This document shows, piece after piece, positions 2,402 to 29,236 of a DNA stretch of 64,000 bases. The stretch is taken from the NCBI RefSeq assembly GCF_900258475.1, contig NZ_LT984887.1, positions 62,001-126,000 on the forward strand. Direction: 5' to 3'. Source of the DNA: Anaerococcus sp. Marseille-P3915 (GTDB lineage Bacteria; Bacillota; Clostridia; Tissierellales; Peptoniphilaceae). Position numbers and translations under genes: made by a program. The notes under the pieces were generated by a model. The model did no database searches and had not been told where the DNA came from. It was given only the letters and a program-made list of their open reading frames with translations. Every line of letters starts with the position of its first letter. Position 1 is the first letter of the stretch.

Positions 2402-2830
2402 CGAGAACGAAGTTCGAGTTATGGAAATACTTATGCAGAGGTATGAACTTGTCCTCTTTTTCTGAAAGAAAATGAGCAGAAAGTTCCACCGATGCTATAG
2501 CCTTGTCCTAACGAGAACGAAGTTCGAGTTATGGAAATACTTATGTAGAGGTATGAACTTGTCCTCTTTTTCTGAAAGAAAATGAGCAGAAAGTTCCACC
2601 GATGCTATAGCCTTGTCCTAATTTGTCCTGAAGGAAAATTATGGAAAGACTTATGTAGAGGCATGAACTTATCTTTATTTTCTGAAATAAAATAATCAGA
2701 AAGTTCTGCCGATACTATAGCCTTGTCCTAGCGAGCACGAAGTGTGAGTTATGGAAAGACTTATGTGGAGGCATGAACTTGTCTTTATTTTCTGAAAGAA
2801 AATAAATAGAAAGTTCTGCCGACACTATAG
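2391..2830 (+). repeat. Four tandem 110-bp repeats beginning in the ridA tail
   Basis: The marker CTATAG recurs at exactly 110-bp spacing (boundaries about 2390, 2500, 2610, 2720 and 2830). Copies 1 and 2 are nearly identical; 3 and 4 are more alike to each other. Each unit starts with the last codons and stop of ridA, then holds two predicted hairpins. Hairpin one in copies 1 and 2 is GAAC-GAA-GTTC and in copy 4 is GCAC-GAA-GTGT. Hairpin two in copy 1 runs from GGTA at about 2441 through GAACTT (2445-2450) to AAGTTC (2481-2486), with an inner stem 2454-2463/2467-2476 closing a GAA loop. Paired bases change together between copies. There is no open frame of note. Confidence 0.92.
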
Positions 2831-3075
2831 CTTTAATTAAAAAAAGTTTTTGGCAAAAAGCAGTTGGTTGTGCCCAATTTTGAGCATATATTCTTAGAAT
2901 TTGCGGATACATTTCAATAATTTTGTCAAAGCAATTTGAGTTTAAAAATACTTATAAAACGAGATTTTTAGCTTTTTTGATAATAAAATCATTTTATGAT
3001 TTGTTTTATGATTCATTAAATAAATTGTTTAAAAATTCTCATTATATAAAAATCAAATCTAAGAAAAAACAAAGT
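2831..3075. other. AT-rich intergenic stretch without a gene
   Basis: About 245 bp between the repeat array and a terminator. Only short A/T runs and a weak TTGTTT...TATATA promoter-like pair (about 3025-3050) that could serve the Nudix gene are seen. The short minus-strand frame here is low-complexity and has no ribosome site. Confidence 0.5.
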
Positions 3076-3096
3076 TGACCCATCCGGGTCATTTTT
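3076..3096 (+). terminator. Rho-independent terminator closing the ridA/repeat transcript
   Basis: TGACCC (3076-3081) / GGGTCA (3086-3091) with a 4-nt loop, then TTTTTG. It is the first convincing terminator after ridA, so the tandem repeats probably lie in a long ridA 3' untranslated region. It stands only 40 bp before the Nudix start. Confidence 0.7.
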
Positions 3097-3136
3097 GTTT
3101 TTGTGGAAATTGAAAATAGAGTTAGGGGAGATAGAG

Positions 3137-3622
3137 ATGGATCAGGATTGTGGATTTAGAAAAGGTAATAAGCGGTTTAGGTATAGGGCGGCTGCCATTA
3201 TAGTTGAAGAAGATTGCCTTTTGTTTGCGGGAAATGAAGTAGAGGACTATTACTATTCCGTTGGTGGCGGAGTACATCTGGGGGAAAGTTCTGAAGAAGC
3301 TGTAAAAAGAGAAGTATTCGAAGAAACAGGAATTAATTATGAAGTGGATTATTTGGCTATAATCCATGAGAATTTCTTTGTAGGAAGTTCTAATTTAGAA
3401 GGCGTCGATTGCCATGAGATTTGCTTTTATTACATGATGAAGCCTAAGGGCAATAAGAATCTTAAGAGTAATAGCTACACCATGGAGGGGCTTAAAGAAT
3501 CTATGCACTGGATTCCAATTGATGAACTTGATAACTATAAAGCATATCCATCTTTTATTAAAGAATATCTTAAGTCAGATCATTGCGGCTTAGAACATAT
3601 AATTACAGATGAGAGATCCTAA
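3137..3622 (+). CDS. Nudix hydrolase
   Basis: Hydrolyses a nucleoside diphosphate linked to another moiety; the substrate cannot be read from sequence. The Nudix box is complete: GGVHLGESSEEAVKREVFEETGI, matching Gx5Ex7REUxEExGU with the metal-binding glutamates. The start chosen is the ATG at 3137, with AGGGGAG about 7 nt upstream; an in-frame TTG at 3095 would begin inside the terminator tail. The resulting 161-aa length is normal for a single-domain Nudix protein. No partner gene is adjacent. Confidence 0.85.
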   Translation: MDQDCGFRKGNKRFRYRAAAIIVEEDCLLFAGNEVEDYYYSVGGGVHLGESSEEAVKREVFEETGINYEVDYLAIIHENFFVGSSNLEGVDCHEICFYYMMKPKGNKNLKSNSYTMEGLKESMHWIPIDELDNYKAYPSFIKEYLKSDHCGLEHIITDERS

Positions 3623-13358: not shown

Positions 13359-14423
13359 ATGAAAAATAAAAATATATTAATGTTAATGGCCCTAAGCTTA
13401 GCCTTCACAGCTTGTGGTAATCAATCACCAAAAGAAGCAGATACTAAGACTCAGGTAGAAGAGCCTCAAAAAACAGATAAGGAAGTAGCAAGCGATGAAA
13501 TTTATGGATCTTTTTATCCAATCTATAATCTAACTAAACAAATAGCTGGAGATAAATTCAACGTAAAAGCTTTCAACTCTCTTACAAGCGAATCTCATGG
13601 CTGGGAGCCATCTGCTAAGGATATGGCAGAATTATCTGAAGCTAAATTGTTATTTATAAATGGTGCTGGCATGGAGGAATGGAAAGATTCTGTAGAAGAA
13701 AGTCTCGATATAGAAATGGTAGATACTTCTAAAGATTTAGATCTAATTAAGGCAAGTGAAGAAGACCACGACCATGACCATGACCACGAAGATGCAGACC
13801 ACGATCACGACCATGAAGATGCCGACCATGACCACGAAGACGCAGACCACGATCATGATCATGAAGAAGGCGAAGAAGGTCACCATCACCACCATCATGG
13901 AGAATTTGACCCACACACCTGGCTATCTCCAGTAAATGTCAAAGCCCAAGCTAAGGTAATAGCTGATAAATTATCAGAAATTGACCCAGCAAATAAGGAT
14001 TATTACCAAGAAAATTACGAAAAAATCGCAGCAGACCTTGATGGAATAATCGAAGAATACACAGACAAATTCTCTAAAGTAGAAAATAAGAAATTCATAG
14101 TTCCTCACCAAGCTTTCGGATATATAGCAAGAGACTTTGGCCTAGAACAAATTCCGCTTGCAAGCCTAACATCAACAGATGATCCAGATGCTAAGGCTAT
14201 GAAGGAAGTTACAGACCTAGCTAAGGCAAATAAATTAAACACAGTATTTTATGAAGCAGGCGGTTCAGATAAAGCAGCAAAGACCATAGCTGATGAAATC
14301 GGCGCAAAAGTAGCTCCACTAAACACCATGGAATTTGCAAGCAAAGAAGAACTAGATAAGGAAGTTAAAATTCAGGATATAATCAAAGAAAACCTTGAAA
14401 ATATCTACAAATCTCTAGCATAA
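13359..14423 (+). CDS. znuA: Zinc-binding lipoprotein of the ZnuABC/AdcABC importer
   Basis: A 354-aa lipoprotein (signal plus lipobox LAFTAC) that captures Zn2+ outside the membrane. The cluster A-1 fold has its metal histidines at SHGWEPSAKD, FDPHTWLSP and PHQAFGYI. Between the first and second lies a long His/Asp/Glu loop (DHDHDHDHEDADHDHDH type, ending in six histidines), typical of zinc rather than manganese binders. The ATG at 13359 follows AAAGGAG; an in-frame ATG at 13329 lies in the operator and is unlikely to be used. Confidence 0.93.
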   Translation: MKNKNILMLMALSLAFTACGNQSPKEADTKTQVEEPQKTDKEVASDEIYGSFYPIYNLTKQIAGDKFNVKAFNSLTSESHGWEPSAKDMAELSEAKLLFINGAGMEEWKDSVEESLDIEMVDTSKDLDLIKASEEDHDHDHDHEDADHDHDHEDADHDHEDADHDHDHEEGEEGHHHHHHGEFDPHTWLSPVNVKAQAKVIADKLSEIDPANKDYYQENYEKIAADLDGIIEEYTDKFSKVENKKFIVPHQAFGYIARDFGLEQIPLASLTSTDDPDAKAMKEVTDLAKANKLNTVFYEAGGSDKAAKTIADEIGAKVAPLNTMEFASKEELDKEVKIQDIIKENLENIYKSLA

Positions 14424-14449
14424 TCCTATATTAAAAGCATAATATATAC

Positions 14450-15109
14450 ATGAAGCTTATAGAAATAGAAAAACTAAAATTTGGATATAATGAAAATTTA
14501 ATATTAAAAGATGTAAATTTAAGTCTTGAAAAAGGAGACTTTGCCGTAATTTCTGGAGAAAATGGATCAGGCAAGTCAACCCTCATCAAGCTAATTCTAG
14601 GTGGACTTAAAAAGGATGAGGGGTCCATTAGGCTTTTTGGTATAGACATAGAAGATTTTAAAAATTATAACAAGCTTGGCTATGTCCCACAGGTCAATGA
14701 TTCTATAAAAATAGCCTTTCCTGTTACCTGCTGGGAATATGTAAGCCTAAACCTCTACAAGGATTTTAACATCTTTAAAAAACTTAAAAAATCTAACAAG
14801 GAAGATGTAGAAAATATCTTTACCAGCCTAAATATCAAAAACCTAATAGATAGGCCCTTCAACAAACTATCAGGAGGCCAAGCCCAAAGAGTAATGATAG
14901 CAAGGGCCCTAGTAGCAAACCCTGACCTTTTAGTCTTAGATGAACCAACAGTAGGTATTGACCAAAAGTCCAAAGACGACTTCCTAAAACTCTTAGTCCA
15001 CCTAAACACCAATCACGGGATTTCAATTTTAATGATAACCCACGAGATGGAAATTTTAGGCGACTATGTGGATAAGATATTTAGATTAAGGGAGGGAGTC
15101 ATATGTTAA
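14450..15109 (+). CDS. znuC: Zinc ABC transporter ATPase
   Basis: 219 aa. Walker A GENGSGKST, Q-loop LGYVPQ, signature LSGGQAQRV, Walker B LLVLDEPTVGID, H-loop MITHE. It energizes ZnuB. It overlaps the permease start by 7 bp. Naming follows the His-rich binding protein next to it. Confidence 0.92.
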   Translation: MKLIEIEKLKFGYNENLILKDVNLSLEKGDFAVISGENGSGKSTLIKLILGGLKKDEGSIRLFGIDIEDFKNYNKLGYVPQVNDSIKIAFPVTCWEYVSLNLYKDFNIFKKLKKSNKEDVENIFTSLNIKNLIDRPFNKLSGGQAQRVMIARALVANPDLLVLDEPTVGIDQKSKDDFLKLLVHLNTNHGISILMITHEMEILGDYVDKIFRLREGVIC

Positions 15110-15918
15110 ACTATGATTTTATGAGAAGGGCCCTAGGGGTAGGAATAATGCTTGCCCTAATCATTCCCATGATAGGTATGGTCATGATAAATAGAAAGAC
15201 ATCCATGATAGGAGATGCCCTTTCTCACTCATCGCTAGCAGGTATAGCTATGGGATTAATTATGTCAATAAATCCCATGTGGACATCCCTTATAATCTGT
15301 ATAATATCAGCCTTTGCAATAGAATTAATCAGGAAAAAATTTAAAGAATTTGGCGACATGGCCACAGCCATCATAATGAGCCTAGGCATAGGCCTTGCGG
15401 CAATCCTTTCAGACTTTGCCCCAGGAGGCAAATCCTTTGAATCATACCTATTTGGCTCAATAACAACAGTATCATCTAGTGATTTGATCATGGTTAGTAT
15501 AATATTTGTCCTAGTAAGCCTAGCATCCTTCTACCTCTACAATGCCCTGCTTTATATATCAATCAACCCCCTAATGGCAAGGCTAGCAGGAGTAAGGGTG
15601 GCACTTATTAATTCAATATTTACAGCCCTAACAGCCCTAACAATTGCAATTTCAGCAAAGATAGTAGGAGCCTTGATGATCACATCCTTAATGGTAATAC
15701 CGGTAGCAAATGCACTGATAATAGCCAAATCCTACAAGCAAACCTACATCATATCCCTAATATTTTCCCTAATATTCATGATTTTAGGAATTACCATATC
15801 CTACTACGGCGGCCTAAAACCAGGCGGAACCATAGTAGTACTCGCCATAATCTCATTAATGATTACAGGCCTAATAAAGTTAATAAGCGACAAGCTAAAG
15901 AAAAAGATCTCTAAATAA
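15103..15918 (+). CDS. znuB: Zinc ABC transporter permease (ABC-3 family)
   Basis: A 271-aa membrane protein with about eight hydrophobic segments and the ABC-3 hallmark GDALSHSSLAGIAMG near the N-terminus. The C-terminal NPLMARLAGVRV region contacts the ATPase. It completes the zinc import operon. Confidence 0.92.
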   Translation: MLNYDFMRRALGVGIMLALIIPMIGMVMINRKTSMIGDALSHSSLAGIAMGLIMSINPMWTSLIICIISAFAIELIRKKFKEFGDMATAIIMSLGIGLAAILSDFAPGGKSFESYLFGSITTVSSSDLIMVSIIFVLVSLASFYLYNALLYISINPLMARLAGVRVALINSIFTALTALTIAISAKIVGALMITSLMVIPVANALIIAKSYKQTYIISLIFSLIFMILGITISYYGGLKPGGTIVVLAIISLMITGLIKLISDKLKKKISK

Positions 15919-15933
15919 AAAGGGGTCTTTTTT
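15900..15933 (+). terminator. Probable terminator after znuB
   Basis: AAAAAGA at the end of znuB can pair with TCTTTTTT about 18 nt later. The stem is AT-rich, so the call is tentative. Confidence 0.4.
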
Positions 15934-15978
15934 GTGTCCTCATATGTTATAATATTAATATATAAAGAAAGGATTTTT

Positions 15979-16701
15979 ATGAAGATTATTATTTCACCAG
16001 CCAAAAGTTTTAAACATTTTGATAATATAGATACAGAGGAACTGCTTTTTCCTAAGAAGACAAGGATTTTAGTTGATAAAATTAAGAAGCTTTCTATGAA
16101 TGAGATGGGTAACCTCAATAGGACCAACGATAAATTGACCGAGAAGGCCTATTATGATTTCCAAGATTTTGATTTTGACAAGTTAAAAAATCCGGCACTT
16201 TTTTCCTATGATGGCCTTGTTTTTAAGCAATTTAAGATGGATGATTTTGATGATTTAGCTTATCTAAACGATCATGTTTATATCCTATCAGCTCTATATG
16301 GCCTTCTTAGGCCGATGACAGGGATTCGTGATTATAGGCTTTATTTTGACAATACTATGTATGACCTTTACGAATTTTGGGGCAAGGATCTTTATAATAA
16401 GCTTTTTGAAGATGATGACCTGGTTTTAAATCTGGCATCTAAGGAATATACCAAGACCATCAGGCCATTTCTTAAAGATGAGGATAAGTTTATCACTGTT
16501 GATTTTAAGGAAAATCGTGATGGCAAGCTTAAATCAATTGTCTCCTACATGAAGCAGGCTAGGGGAGTCATGCTTAGGGAGATTATTAAAAATAAAATCG
16601 AAGATATTAACCAGGTTAAAGAGCTTGTTATCAATGATTATAAGTATGACCCTTATTATTCTACGCCTGATACCCTTACTTTTGTGAGGGATAAGAGATG
16701 A
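15979..16701 (+). CDS. yaaA: YaaA family peroxide-stress protein
   Basis: 240 aa, full family length. YaaA lowers free iron and DNA damage during H2O2 stress in E. coli and binds DNA. Family motifs: MKIIISPAKSF, GLVFKQF, ILSALYGLLRPMTGIRDYRL, FWGKDLY, NLASKEYTK and AKHARG-like MKQARGVMLREI. The ATG at 15979 has GAAAGGA upstream. The stop overlaps the sbcD start (ATGA), making it the first gene of a DNA-repair operon. Confidence 0.92.
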   Translation: MKIIISPAKSFKHFDNIDTEELLFPKKTRILVDKIKKLSMNEMGNLNRTNDKLTEKAYYDFQDFDFDKLKNPALFSYDGLVFKQFKMDDFDDLAYLNDHVYILSALYGLLRPMTGIRDYRLYFDNTMYDLYEFWGKDLYNKLFEDDDLVLNLASKEYTKTIRPFLKDEDKFITVDFKENRDGKLKSIVSYMKQARGVMLREIIKNKIEDINQVKELVINDYKYDPYYSTPDTLTFVRDKR

Positions 16702-17819
16702 AACTCCTCCACCTATCTGACCTTCATATTGGCAAAAGTCTGGGTAATTTTTCACTCTTGGAAGATCAGAAATATGTTCTTGATCAAATCTTAGAAATTA
16801 TTGAAGAGAAAAAGGTCGAAGCTGTCATGATTGCAGGAGATATTTTTGATACAGCCCTTGCAAGTGCAGAGGCTCTAGACCTTTATAATTATTTTATAGA
16901 AAAAATCGTCTTTGATCTTGATATCCCAGTCCTTGCCATAGCAGGTAACCACGATTCAGCCAAAAGGCTTGATGTCAACAAAAGATTTTATAAGACTAAT
17001 AAATATTACCTAGCAGGTGAATTTAATAGGGATAAGGTCACACTTTTTGATGATGAGGGCCCTCTTAATTTTTACCTTTTGCCTTTCATGTCCCTAGCCA
17101 AAGGAGAGGTTCTTTTTGGGGAAAAGCTTGATGATTTTACTAGGCTTTATGAGCTTGCACTTGAGGGGATAGATTATAATGATAGAAATGTCTTAATCAC
17201 CCACTGCTATGCTTCTTATAGTGAAAGTACTCTAGAGACAGCCTATAATGAGGGCCAAAAGCCCCTAGTTATTGGCGGGTCTGACATGATGGATGCTAGT
17301 CTTTTTGATAGATTTGACTATGTGGCCCTAGGCCACCTTCATTCTGCCCACTTTGTTAAGGAAGAAAAAATAAGATATGCCGGGACCTTTATGCCTTATT
17401 CCTTTGATAAGAAGGATATTAATAAGTCTGTGACCCTAGTTGACCTAAAAAAAGATAGTCTAGAAATAGAAAAAATTCCTATAAAGCTTCTTAGAGAATT
17501 TGAAGTAAGGCAGGGGCTTTTTGATGATTTGATTAGAGAAGATCCGTCAGATTCTTATATCAAATTCATCCTAGATGATGAGGCGACAGTTGAAAATGCC
17601 ATGGCAAAATTTAAGGCCAAATTTCCAAATGCAGTCCTTATAAATTATGCAAATAAGTCTGTCTTTGACCTTGACGGGGAAAGTCTTGATATAGACCTAG
17701 ACAATAAAAACCCCCTAGAGCTTTTTGCTGACTTTGTTGACTTTAAAGACAGCAGAAAGCTTACAGAGGCAGAAGTTGAAATCTTGAAAGAAGTGATTGG
17801 AGAAGATTTTGAAGGCTAA
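16698..17819 (+). CDS. sbcD: SbcD, Mre11-type nuclease subunit
   Basis: 373 aa. With SbcC it cuts hairpins, palindromes and protein-blocked DNA ends. The phosphoesterase blocks are complete: LLHLSDLHIGKSL, MIAGDIFDTA, AIAGNHDSAKRL, ITHCYAS and YVALGHLHSAH. The C-terminal third is the capping/SbcC-binding part. Start and stop overlap both neighbours (ATGA with yaaA; 11 bp with sbcC). Confidence 0.94.
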   Translation: MKLLHLSDLHIGKSLGNFSLLEDQKYVLDQILEIIEEKKVEAVMIAGDIFDTALASAEALDLYNYFIEKIVFDLDIPVLAIAGNHDSAKRLDVNKRFYKTNKYYLAGEFNRDKVTLFDDEGPLNFYLLPFMSLAKGEVLFGEKLDDFTRLYELALEGIDYNDRNVLITHCYASYSESTLETAYNEGQKPLVIGGSDMMDASLFDRFDYVALGHLHSAHFVKEEKIRYAGTFMPYSFDKKDINKSVTLVDLKKDSLEIEKIPIKLLREFEVRQGLFDDLIREDPSDSYIKFILDDEATVENAMAKFKAKFPNAVLINYANKSVFDLDGESLDIDLDNKNPLELFADFVDFKDSRKLTEAEVEILKEVIGEDFEG

Positions 17820-27100: not shown

Positions 27101-27543
27101 GCCTAATCCACAAAGTCTTTCAGAAACTCCCAATGAAAGAATATGATAGAGAGAGTCTTAAAGCAGAAATAGAAATCTTAATAGAGAACCAAATAATAGA
27201 AAAAGAAGGGGCAAAACTTTTAGAAGTGGATAAATTTTTAGGATTTTTCCAAAATGATCTGATAAAAGAATTAATCAAGGAAGAAACACCTTACAGAAAA
27301 GAAGAATCCTTCCTAATGCAGTATGAGGATTACTACGTAAATGGTCAGATAGACCTAATCTTTGAAAAAGAAAACGAAATAATCCTAATAGACTTCAAGA
27401 CAGATAGGATAAAAAGAGAAGAAGCCTACAAAAAGCAGTTAGAAATCTACAAAAAAGCTTTAGAAGAAGCCTTGGGCAAAAAGGTAAGCATGGGGCTTAT
27501 ATATTGGTATAATAGTGGGGAGATTAGTGTTTACAATAAATAA
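24184..27543 (+). CDS. addA: AddA, helicase-nuclease subunit
   Basis: 1119 aa UvrD-like helicase plus nuclease. Walker A SAAAGSGKTFVLVERI, motif Ia VTFTNKSAIDMK, Walker B FIFFDEYQDSN, motif III GDVKQSIYGFRRARP, motif V MTIHKSKGLEFKVVI, motif VI LYVGLTRAEERLY, and C-terminal nuclease GQIDLIF...LIDFKTDR. An ATG at 24184 is preferred over 24178 because AGAGGG directly abuts the earlier one. It overlaps the end of addB and closes the operon. Confidence 0.94.
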   Translation: MTEIKKTKAQEAAIDTEDKNIIVSAAAGSGKTFVLVERIISLMKKYHIDIDKMIIVTFTNKSAIDMKNKIRARLEEAADDFDPDFLRRQIRLLKTAQIKTLHAFCSDMIRENFYYFDKLSPNFKVLTENTSIIMRANAIDEIFDEEYEKMTDGFRIFLENFAQNRNDSPAKGLIQDTYNMIIGQIDPLAWLDKNTRSANIGDKLKEISKKSLRDMKDKAFKLTVMANENDMREKLQELVTEDYSIFLDLENNLDSWDEFLEKIEKVKFGRLSSSKNDDKFLYNILRTDRNSYKNSLDKLKNLVRNTSSDLISLTSHKEEILLGEINRLTRRFMEVFDQKKKAKSYLDFNDLEQYFIRLLDNETARNKLVDKFEYIFFDEYQDSNEIQNYIIEKLKRERRLFFVGDVKQSIYGFRRARPDLFLEKLDIYEREEDSVRINLNENFRTDRLLLDFNNYIFDRIMTKETSGIDYKNGGHRLNFGRDKENPNAKVGLTVLDKAVNEEDYLVRLIRDLVGEGYAYKDIAILLRSGNKSYVYEEAFKRADIPYFNDISKVSFLAAEVNFFINLLKYLANPNDDIVLLSVLRSEIFNFSEDDLVEIKLYSDSFRFYDCFDNYDGNEQIKAKIDNFKLVIKDLKNKLAIYSLFDFANYLFEKTGLYDFLMARDLGADRINNIESLIDLMAEYDSANDNGLYGFLTYYENISKTQKDSIDQSRDLSEEEDLVRIMTIHKSKGLEFKVVILADSSRLIRNMHSRNLAIFDDKLGIGIDVADYDRKVKVSSINKKLIENKLVEEDKKEEMRILYVGLTRAEERLYITGTKSQSSLAKLYQNVDYLEMSSHLDWILSSLSFDKIGEEIFAKDYFTDDFDKRVDISYLESLEEEKVRESRDIGKIFEDIKPSANYKKIEDLMDFTYKGVDDIGESLKKSVTEIAKDFNKEEEGYERSSFGENYSNIDFKKPAFIEEEKTYSATDKGSLIHKVFQKLPMKEYDRESLKAEIEILIENQIIEKEGAKLLEVDKFLGFFQNDLIKELIKEETPYRKEESFLMQYEDYYVNGQIDLIFEKENEIILIDFKTDRIKREEAYKKQLEIYKKALEEALGKKVSMGLIYWYNSGEISVYNK

Positions 27544-27549
27544 TGGGTA

Positions 27550-27584
27550 TTTTAGGGGAGCTTCCCCTAAAACCCCTTTTTTTA
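27550..27584 (+). terminator. Terminator after addA
   Basis: TTTTAGGGG (27550-27558) / CCCCTAAAA (27564-27572), loop AGCTT, then CCCC and seven Ts. Confidence 0.88.
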
Positions 27585-28482
27585 TTATCCAAGATAATAG
27601 TATTTTAGACTTTGATTCTTCGTAACTTAACCATTTAATATTTAATTTCTATTTACTATTGAATCTTCGTAATAAGGGGAGGCCCAAGGACCCTTTCGCA
27701 TGGGTCCTCATCGGCCTCCCCTTAAACCCCTCCCCGTTACACCCCACAAGCGACTCCTTAGCGGAGTGCGAACAGAGAAGATTGCCTAACGGCAATCCTA
27801 TCTTGGTAGACAAATCTCTTTGTTTTAGATTTCCTTATTCTTACTGATTTTGACATTCTGATGCCTAAAAATCTCAATCTAGTCCAAATATTTATTTTGT
27901 ATACACTCTACATCTCAGCACTTACAAAATTTAATTTGTACTCGTGCGTCAGGAGATTTTCTTAACGGCATCTCCATTTACAAAATATTCCGACCATGGG
28001 AGAATTATTCTGTATTCTGAGAGGATATTGACATCTAAGTAAGTATTGGTCTCGTTTGCCATTGGCAAACATTGCTATTGGTGGGTCTAAGTAAGAGAGC
28101 TTTGATATTTACTGAATTAAAATCGTCAATTATTTTAAATAGAGGAAGCGTTAAGAAAATTTTGTTGAGCGTAACGAAGTGAAGCGAATCTAAATTTTTA
28201 GCTGACGAGATTTGAAATAATAGATTTTGAACCAGGATGAATAGCCGTCAGGTCTAATATAGAAGATTGCTAGAAGCAATCTTCAGTTTGCCCTCTGCAA
28301 GAGTCGCTTGCGGGGTGTAACGAAGAGGGGGTGTAAGGGGGAGGGCGATGAGGACCCATGCGAAAGGGTCCTTGGCCCTCCCCCTTTGGCGAAGTCATCA
28401 GCTTGATGACAATTATTTATTATGAGATAAAATTACAAGAATAAAAGTAAATAATAATTTTATCTTGGATAAAAAACCCCTA
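27576..28482. repeat. Gene-free giant imperfect palindrome (about 900 bp)
   Basis: The left half reappears reverse-complemented in the right half around an axis near 28029-28062. Anchors: 27586-27596 with 28461-28471 (11/11), 27685-27713 with 28346-28374 (29/29), 27735-27755 with 28302-28322 (20/21), 27957-27967 with 28149-28159 (11/11), and a central GTTTGCC-ATT-GGCAAAC (28054-28070). Each arm also folds on itself. Left: AAGGGGAGGCC/GGCCTCCCCTT (27674-27684/27713-27723) enclosing AGGACCC/GGGTCCT, and GATTGCC/GGCAATC (27780-27797). Right: the counterparts at 28335-28345/28376-28386 and 28262-28284, plus GTCATCA/TGATGAC (28394-28410). The reading frames here are short and follow the palindrome; I see no real gene or transposase. 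Confidence 0.88.
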
Positions 28483-28507: not shown

Positions 28508-29236
28508 TTAATAAAACCCCCCATTTATATGAATAATATCCCCAGTTATATAAGAAGCCTCATCAGAGATCAAGTACCTCACTAGGCCTGCGATTTCTTC
28601 TGGCTTTGCTAGTCTTTTTATGCCTACTTCTTCTTTTAACTGATTTATTTCTTCTGGGCTAAAGTCTCTTTTCATCATGTCTGTATCTACCATGCCTGGG
28701 GCTATGGCGTTTACTCTTATATTTGATGGGGCTAATTCTTTGGCCATGGCCTTGGTGAAGGTATTTATGGCGCCCTTGCTTGTAGAGTAGGAAGATTCCA
28801 TGCTTGCTCCGAAGTCTCCCCAGATTGAGCTGATATTTATGATTACTCCCTCTTTTTTCTCAATCATTTTTGGTATGGCTCTTTTGGAGTTTAGAAAGAC
28901 CGAATTAAGGTTGGTATTTATTACATCCAGCCACTTGTCAAAGGGAGTGTCTTGGATTAGGCCAAAGTAGGATATACCTGCGTTATTTATTAGGATGTCG
29001 ACATTTTTGAAATTGTCTTCAATGATTTTAAACATCGCTTCTACCTGGTCTTCATCTGATACATCTGCCCCTATGGCTATTACCATGGGATTTATTTCTC
29101 TTAATTCTTTTAGAAGGTTCATGGCTTCATCTTTGCTCTTATTATAATTTATTACGATTTGATAATCTTTTGCGAGGTTTTTGGCAATTGCAGCACCTAT
29201 TCCCCTGGAAGATCCTGTTATTAATACTGTTTTCAT
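28508..29236 (-). CDS. ymfI: Short-chain reductase, probably YmfI-type EF-P 5-aminopentanone reductase
   Basis: 242-aa classical SDR. Cofactor motif TGSSRGIGAAIA, NNAGIS, catalytic serine in NISSIWGDFGAS, YSTSK with the Tyr-Lys pair, NAIAPGMVDTDM, and the C-terminal YITGDIIHINGG. The SSIWG...GAS stretch is what I associate with the YmfI group, which reduces the 5-aminopentanone carried by elongation factor P in Firmicutes; a FabG-like 3-oxoacyl-ACP reductase is the alternative. It is divergent from the aldo/keto reductase and reads toward the giant palindrome. Confidence 0.8.
   Translation of the reverse strand: MKTVLITGSSRGIGAAIAKNLAKDYQIVINYNKSKDEAMNLLKELREINPMVIAIGADVSDEDQVEAMFKIIEDNFKNVDILINNAGISYFGLIQDTPFDKWLDVINTNLNSVFLNSKRAIPKMIEKKEGVIINISSIWGDFGASMESSYSTSKGAINTFTKAMAKELAPSNIRVNAIAPGMVDTDMMKRDFSPEEINQLKEEVGIKRLAKPEEIAGLVRYLISDEASYITGDIIHINGGFY

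Follow-up and report, generated by a model that had tools for sequence, protein, structure and literature searches.

The DNA analysed here, referred to as the window, is a stretch of 64,000 nucleotides from Anaerococcus sp. Marseille-P3915, in which the gap between addA (ending at 27543) and an SDR gene on the minus strand (28508-29236) is taken up by an imperfect palindrome about 920 bp long; SbcC, AddB and AddA are confirmed by Pfam near this copy. The ends of the palindrome were placed at about 27550 and 28475, and the paired segments of its arms lie on a common axis: a 66-nt pair, 27665-27730 with 28329-28394 (85%), a 39-nt pair (82%) and an outer 40-nt pair (83%). The local arm-to-arm score is 179, compared to 21.2 on average and 38 at most across 1000 dinucleotide-shuffled sequences, and the RNA fold is -352 kcal/mol, with a z of -18 relative to 20 shuffled sequences (-220 +/- 7 kcal/mol). 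These values bear out the sequence-only reading that had reported a palindrome of about 900 bp and placed it correctly; the anchors on which it relied (29/29, 20/21 and 11/11 inverted bases) are recovered in the arm alignment as about 30 identical bases, about 22 with one mismatch and an outer match of 13 bases. The chain of hairpins, with stems that differ between left and right and still match, is likewise recovered as inverted repeats I7 and I8, and, in line with the description of the region as devoid of genes, there is no large ORF within the window palindrome; across 66 element spans, the longest ORF has a median length of 67 aa and a maximum of 128 aa. When the covariance model of the arm core (R1) was scanned over the whole window, it matched the two palindrome arms only. 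An assembly join is an unlikely source of the palindrome because, as judged from the sequences, the identical architecture recurs in independent genomes. The parts of the window copy are as follows.

27550..27597, plus strand: left end, with a terminator-like hairpin (27550-27572) followed by a TTATC-CAA-GATAA hairpin motif (27585-27597)
27585..28028, plus strand: left arm of about 440 nt, arm class 1 of its own genome (arm alignment, tree class)
27665..27802, plus strand: left-arm core unit, hairpins h1-h3 (covariance model R1, 140 bits)
27673..27724, plus strand: left-arm hairpin h1, outer stem TAAGGGGAGGCC/GGCCTCCCCTTA (inverted repeat I7; covariation)
27753..27767, plus strand: left-arm hairpin h2 (consensus pairs; position read from sequence)
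27780..27797, plus strand: left-arm hairpin h3, GATTGCC/GGCAATC (consensus pairs; position read from sequence)
27860..27973, plus strand: left-arm hairpin h4, with conserved CTAAAAA and TTTTCTTAACG beside an internal loop (position read from sequence)
28029..28472, minus strand: right arm, arm class 2, the inverted homologue of the left arm (arm alignment, tree class)
28054..28070, no strand assigned: small near-centre hairpin GTTTGC/GCAAAC on the right-arm side (similar hairpins in other copies)
28260..28394, minus strand: right-arm core unit (covariance model R1, 113 bits)
28335..28386, minus strand: right-arm hairpin h1, AAGGGGGAGGGC/GCCCTCCCCCTT (inverted repeat I8)
28460..28472, minus strand: right-end copy of the TTATC-GATAA motif (read from sequence; arm alignment)

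The palindrome axis near 28028 coincides with the inner limit of the left arm. The small TTATC-CAA-GATAA hairpin, whose window position was read from the sequence, is also found at the ends of other copies in the copy alignment, and terminator-like sites number 3, compared to 0.6 in shuffles.

The window palindrome is one of many dispersed copies. A search for further copies, which the sequence-only reading had proposed as a check, was productive: the genome of origin contains 36 arm units and yields 86 matching pieces in a DNA search with the window element. Across the genus, the DNA search identified matches in 13 of the 31 genomes, including the genome of origin; eight of these have several matches, among them the element-bearing G001 (Anaerococcus degeneri DSM 29674, family Peptoniphilaceae), and five have a single weak one. 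The covariance model of the arm core matches 26 of the 31 genomes, with no arm unit in the other five, G010, G013, G018, G019 and G030, at the same threshold (E 0.01). The model and the underlying alignment (A1) cover a 139-position core from 52 of 99 arms, the excluded ones being truncated, interrupted by inserts or nearly duplicate; three of the original 102 arms (L126r, L130l and L130r) were dropped before the 99-arm core was compiled. Within the family, the model matches 46 of 130 genomes and 12 of 39 genera (1e-4), and within the order, 42 of 249 genomes (1e-6), all 42 in Peptoniphilaceae. In other genera of this family, large palindromes surround some of the matches (L211, L214, L229); several loci matched outside Anaerococcus show no large palindrome (for example, L210 and L213), so the matches outside the genus are less certain. 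No plasmid matched window positions 27650-28410. One motif of the element gave 3 stretches in viral contigs, none of which matches R1 (E 0.01), and 17 stretches in named genomes, of which only two A. degeneri records match R1. No description of such an element was found among the titles, abstract beginnings and few passages of the open-licence literature that were covered, and, in the part available of a paper on A. prevotii (PMC3035230), the sole passage on repeats is a CRISPR count of 0; the family is apparently an undescribed non-coding DNA repeat.

The full element consists of two homologous, diverged arms that are inverted and face inward; the retained duplication considered in the sequence-only reading thus stands insofar as one unit is the inverted homologue of the other. 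Among the 137 units detected in six genomes (E 1e-4), 110 form 55 inward pairs (within 1.3 kb) and 27 are unpaired, with three cases of same-strand neighbours and none of outward ones. The spacings of the inward pairs fall at 574-598 in 21 cases, at 486-488 in five and at 518-528 in four. In the arm tree, where some deep branches are weakly supported and the arm classes are defined within groups, the two arms belong to different classes in 48 of the 49 elements that have both (13/13 in the genome of origin, 5/5 in G008, 25/25 in G001/G005/G009 and 5/6 in G006/G014); in the exceptional G006/G014 element, L128, one arm is an outlier. The core is 128-142 nt long in 86 of 99 arms, and the element itself measures from several hundred to about 1100 bp across copies.

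Two variants of this design were observed. In G022, the arm units of a shortened element face inward at a distance of only about 210 bp and recur at close intervals (C1:423-433 kb and 490 kb). In some arms, h1 harbours an additional hairpin module of about 85 nt, whose AAATCAA loop is conserved and whose stems vary (L033; L035, in the left arm; L040; L042, in the arm on the other side); G001 and G009 also contain modules of this type at positions outside the element.

Conservation of structure was assessed at 41 stem pairs predicted on both strands, to which the stem and wobble counts are restricted. Among 3939 cells, 87.4% are Watson-Crick pairs, a figure that leans upward given that the stem structure was derived from the same sequences; shuffling the partners lowers it to 66.5% (maximum 67.7%), and sliding them to 26-47%. 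At least two Watson-Crick types occur in 26 of the 41 pairs and at least three in nine. When the two arms of the same element are compared, both sides of the stem pair differ in 515 of 1891 cells, and one side differs in 295 more. Of these 515 cells, 407 retain Watson-Crick pairing locally in both arms, and arm-to-arm pairing is lost there. One giant hairpin as the selected structure was rejected on these grounds: where the arms differ, pairing between them is lost and local pairing mostly holds. Judging by these substitutions, the conserved feature is a chain of local hairpins in each arm rather than one giant hairpin, so that the claim of a maintained structure, as opposed to chance, applies to the local hairpins and does not extend to the pairing of one arm with the other. 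The internal-loop motifs CTAAAAA, TTTTCTTAACG and TACACCC are mostly 80-100% identical (two columns are at 62% and 77%), compared to a mean identity of 59% in a set of stem columns picked as variable.

Watson-Crick replacement of this kind would also result from neutral upkeep, whereby template switching at replication forks (quasipalindrome correction) re-copies stems from their partners without any function. This process predicts Watson-Crick perfection without wobble bias, as observed, but on its own would keep neither the near-invariant motifs beside internal loops nor the narrow range of core lengths, and would not produce the strict inward pairing of two arm classes; we consider it quite improbable as the full explanation.

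Strong conserved secondary structure with covariation could also point to a long non-coding RNA with a defined structure, or to a convergent pair of RNAs, made from each copy. Yet, non-Watson-Crick cells in the element stems comprise 74 G.T and 89 A.C, compared to 12 and 1 (P 0.001) in a tRNA control (acceptor stems of 27 tRNAs pooled from the fetched loci, including a few from other bacteria); this pooled count could mask a preference since the arms are inverted and a transcript through the whole element would balance the strands. After splitting by arm class, wobbles on the two strands number 41 and 32 in the genome of origin and 31 and 32 in G001/G005/G009, so neither overall nor in the two largest groups is there a preference, and arm class 2 of the latter group has a single G.T in 1015 cells. 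The small groups, with few pair columns, are uneven, 2 vs 9 in G008 and 10 vs 1 in G006/G014. The folding energy oriented by arm class favours one direction in 10 of 13 copies from the genome of origin (by 3.7%, P 0.017) and in 18 of 25 from G001/G005/G009 (by 2.1%, P 0.005), with P values that are overstated, the copies being related rather than independent; the other two groups show no significant strand difference. The better folding of one strand and the G006/G014 wobbles hint faintly at a strand-specific (RNA) role. Promoter-like sites occur at the chance number (4 found vs 4.0 expected), and no Rfam family covers the element: the matches up to E 1 are to four animal microRNA families, all below the gathering score and taken as chance. 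The structured RNA envisaged in the sequence-only reading is therefore disfavoured and, in our assessment, improbable. Because the stems swap by Watson-Crick changes without a wobble preference, covariation acting on DNA rather than RNA seems favoured on balance.

The sequence-only reading had also called for a search for empty sites, and these were found at the addA-SDR junction itself. The adjacency of the two genes is retained in 25 of the 29 relatives in which the addA end was examined, and in 23 of these 25, no more than 231 bp separates the gene ends, which leaves no room for the element; in the other two, about 640 bp of different sequence separates addA from SDR and folds weakly and locally. 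The window copy is thus, by comparison of these junctions, an occupied site that is empty in relatives with the same neighbour genes. The gap of about 640 bp (L162 and L164, in G023 and G010, respectively) consists of unrelated sequence and is possibly a decayed gene. The proximity of SbcCD, which had been considered remarkable for so long a palindrome, does not survive as an argument: units are present by the dozen at other loci, and the element is missing from this junction in relatives that retain the addA-SDR neighbours. The SbcC neighbourhood of the window copy looks like a coincidence.

Some of the occupied sites are common to several species (L033/L082/L119 and L044/L080/L102/L118 are examples). 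Among 15 such same-site groups, a mutual best match was observed only in one small pair (L096/L111), which implies that copies have probably undergone exchange or that insertion has recurred. In one case, a segment encoding a HAD hydrolase and an AGCS transporter and located between two copies is inverted between G009 (C2:1041-1045 kb) and G001 (C8:68-72 kb). One occupied/empty pair from the same two genomes shows no clear target duplication; at the emptier site, an end-like motif persists and the terminator is a different one. Another candidate pair from G001 and G009 was dismissed as an unrelated tRNA-like repeat array. This array (L135, G001 C8, reverse strand, about 2540-3520 of the joined stretch) is composed of tRNA-like fragments (GGTTCGAGTCCC...) and AAGACTTTCCAT...GGACAAG units, and its copy number differs between G001 and G009.

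Several known classes of repeats resemble the element in part. MITEs are non-coding, inverted-repeat, dispersed and non-autonomous, and the element resembles them in all these respects, with dispersed non-coding copies at both occupied and empty sites. The relationship to MITEs proposed in the sequence-only reading holds to this extent; unlike MITEs, the element is hairpin-structured over its whole length. No clear target duplication was seen at the one occupied/empty pair compared, and no parent transposase was found, the Y1 family being the only one sought. The domain of this family, PF01797, in a survey that lumps RAYT with IS200 TnpA, is present in 21 of the 31 genomes and was not found in G005, G017 and G022, which carry units; mobilisation by a Y1/RAYT enzyme was rejected for this lack of association. 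The closest likeness is to REPINs, in which two homologous repeats in inverted orientation flank a less conserved spacer, with many extragenic copies, predicted DNA hairpins, compensatory changes and singlets as remnants (PMC3116915). The inward pairs and the compensated hairpins of the element reproduce this arrangement. In the same source, REPs span tens of bases, and the GI type consists of two invariant 16-mers 71 bp apart (PMC3116915), unlike the present units, which are about 400 nt long (the core alone exceeding REP size), contain several hairpins, come in two distinct arm classes and have no associated RAYT-type partner. From its sequence, the element is best described as a REPIN design enlarged many-fold that falls outside this class in unit size and transposase. 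BIMEs and REP clusters share with it palindromic extragenic repeats, alternating orientation and mosaic build (PMC2817692), but not the scale, the fixed inward pair or the arm classes.

Insertion sequences were observed in or beside several copies. An IS110-family element (with a 410-aa DEDD transposase) lies at the same base of h1, inside the CCT^CATCGG segment, in two copies from the genome of origin (L138, about 14995-16740, and L139, about 14147-15880; C1, about 1.531 and 1.551 Mb), as though the repeat were its target. REPs are reported to serve as IS110 targets (PMC1525189); the present case is similar in that one conserved hairpin point is used, and unlike it in that the targeted repeat belongs to a different, larger family. 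In both L138 and L139, an N is accompanied by a duplicated stretch, which probably reflects patching of the assembly. At L140:8495-9927 and L136:5181-6613, also in the genome of origin, palindrome copies have an IS3-like transposase pair directly beside or inside them.

The chromosomal distribution was examined in genomes in which dnaA could be mapped (seven, of which five have a usable main contig; the genome of origin and G015, with unordered contigs, fall outside the test, G006 and G014 are represented by the main contig, and the G024 length was taken as a rounded 1.9 Mb). In these five genomes, none of the 101 units, which form 35 clusters, is farther from dnaA than 0.59 of the half-chromosome. 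In three of the five, a distance of 0.60 is exceeded by 11 of 20 Y1 transposase copies and by none of 27 element clusters. The mean distance per genome is significant only in G009 (P 0.0002; 0.07-0.26 in the others), and the maximum-distance test gives 0.001-0.07; these P values are indicative, given that the interval was picked post hoc and the sites are partly shared by descent. Gene context could be assigned to 53 of 66 elements, with 29 in codirectional, 19 in convergent and 5 in divergent gaps, an excess of convergent over divergent ones (P 0.007).

parS and Noc-binding sites are multi-copy, short, duplex palindromic DNA located away from the terminus, and the element copies resemble them in being multi-copy, palindromic and origin-proximal. 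The main rival explanation is, accordingly, that the copies are host docking sites in the origin half for a nucleoid, segregation or nucleoid-occlusion-type protein, maintained by selection and gene conversion. The confinement to the origin-proximal part, the same-site copies in several species and the conserved motifs agree with this scenario. However, single-genome mean distances are significant in only one of five genomes; the element is not essential since five of the 31 genus genomes lack a unit at E 0.01; and the elements, which have secondary structure and range from several hundred to about 1100 bp, greatly exceed the usual size of binding sites. We regard docking sites as unlikely, albeit as the leading alternative.

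With belief and doubt about evenly balanced, we interpret the window element as a copy of a giant, REPIN-like, DNA-structured, non-autonomous and largely selfish repeat. The multiplicity of copies in one genome, their spread across the family, the strict inward pairing of two classes, the local Watson-Crick covariation, the empty site, the same-site copies that mostly are not best matches and the preference for convergent over divergent gaps argue for this interpretation. The lack of an associated transposase and of a clear target duplication at the one G009/G001 site argue against it, as does the sharing of several sites by distant species, unlike a lively transposon; confinement near the origin is unexpected of a purely selfish repeat, and the slight folding bias to one strand (10/13 and 18/25) and the uneven G006/G014 wobbles also count against it. 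Under the giant REPIN-like interpretation, each unit would fold into its own hairpins in single-stranded (lagging strand) or cruciform DNA, the folded units would be recognised by a DNA-acting protein encoded elsewhere, and that enzyme, recombination between copies or both would then copy, move or homogenise the inverted pair, which would be tolerated in gaps away from promoters. We infer both the transposition of the element and the existence of the putative binding protein.

A bolder proposal, speculative and unlikely, is that the family represents a new class of chromosomal elements, an obligate heterodimer of mirror-facing DNA units of about 400 nt, whose hairpins, folded in single-stranded or cruciform DNA and bearing conserved internal-loop motifs, would be read by a putative protein; confined to the origin half and kept by gene conversion, such elements might play a role in chromosome organisation or replication rather than being merely selfish.

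Covarying structure is usually taken to indicate RNA; here, the compensatory changes in a kilobase-scale repeat seem to act on DNA, in an element that is family-wide, follows a strict inverted two-class design and shows an origin-proximal distribution. If this is true, the element would offer a natural system for the survival of long imperfect palindromes in cells that encode SbcC, for the recognition of DNA hairpins and for the reshaping of chromosomes by repeats, as in the segment flanked by two copies that is inverted between two species.
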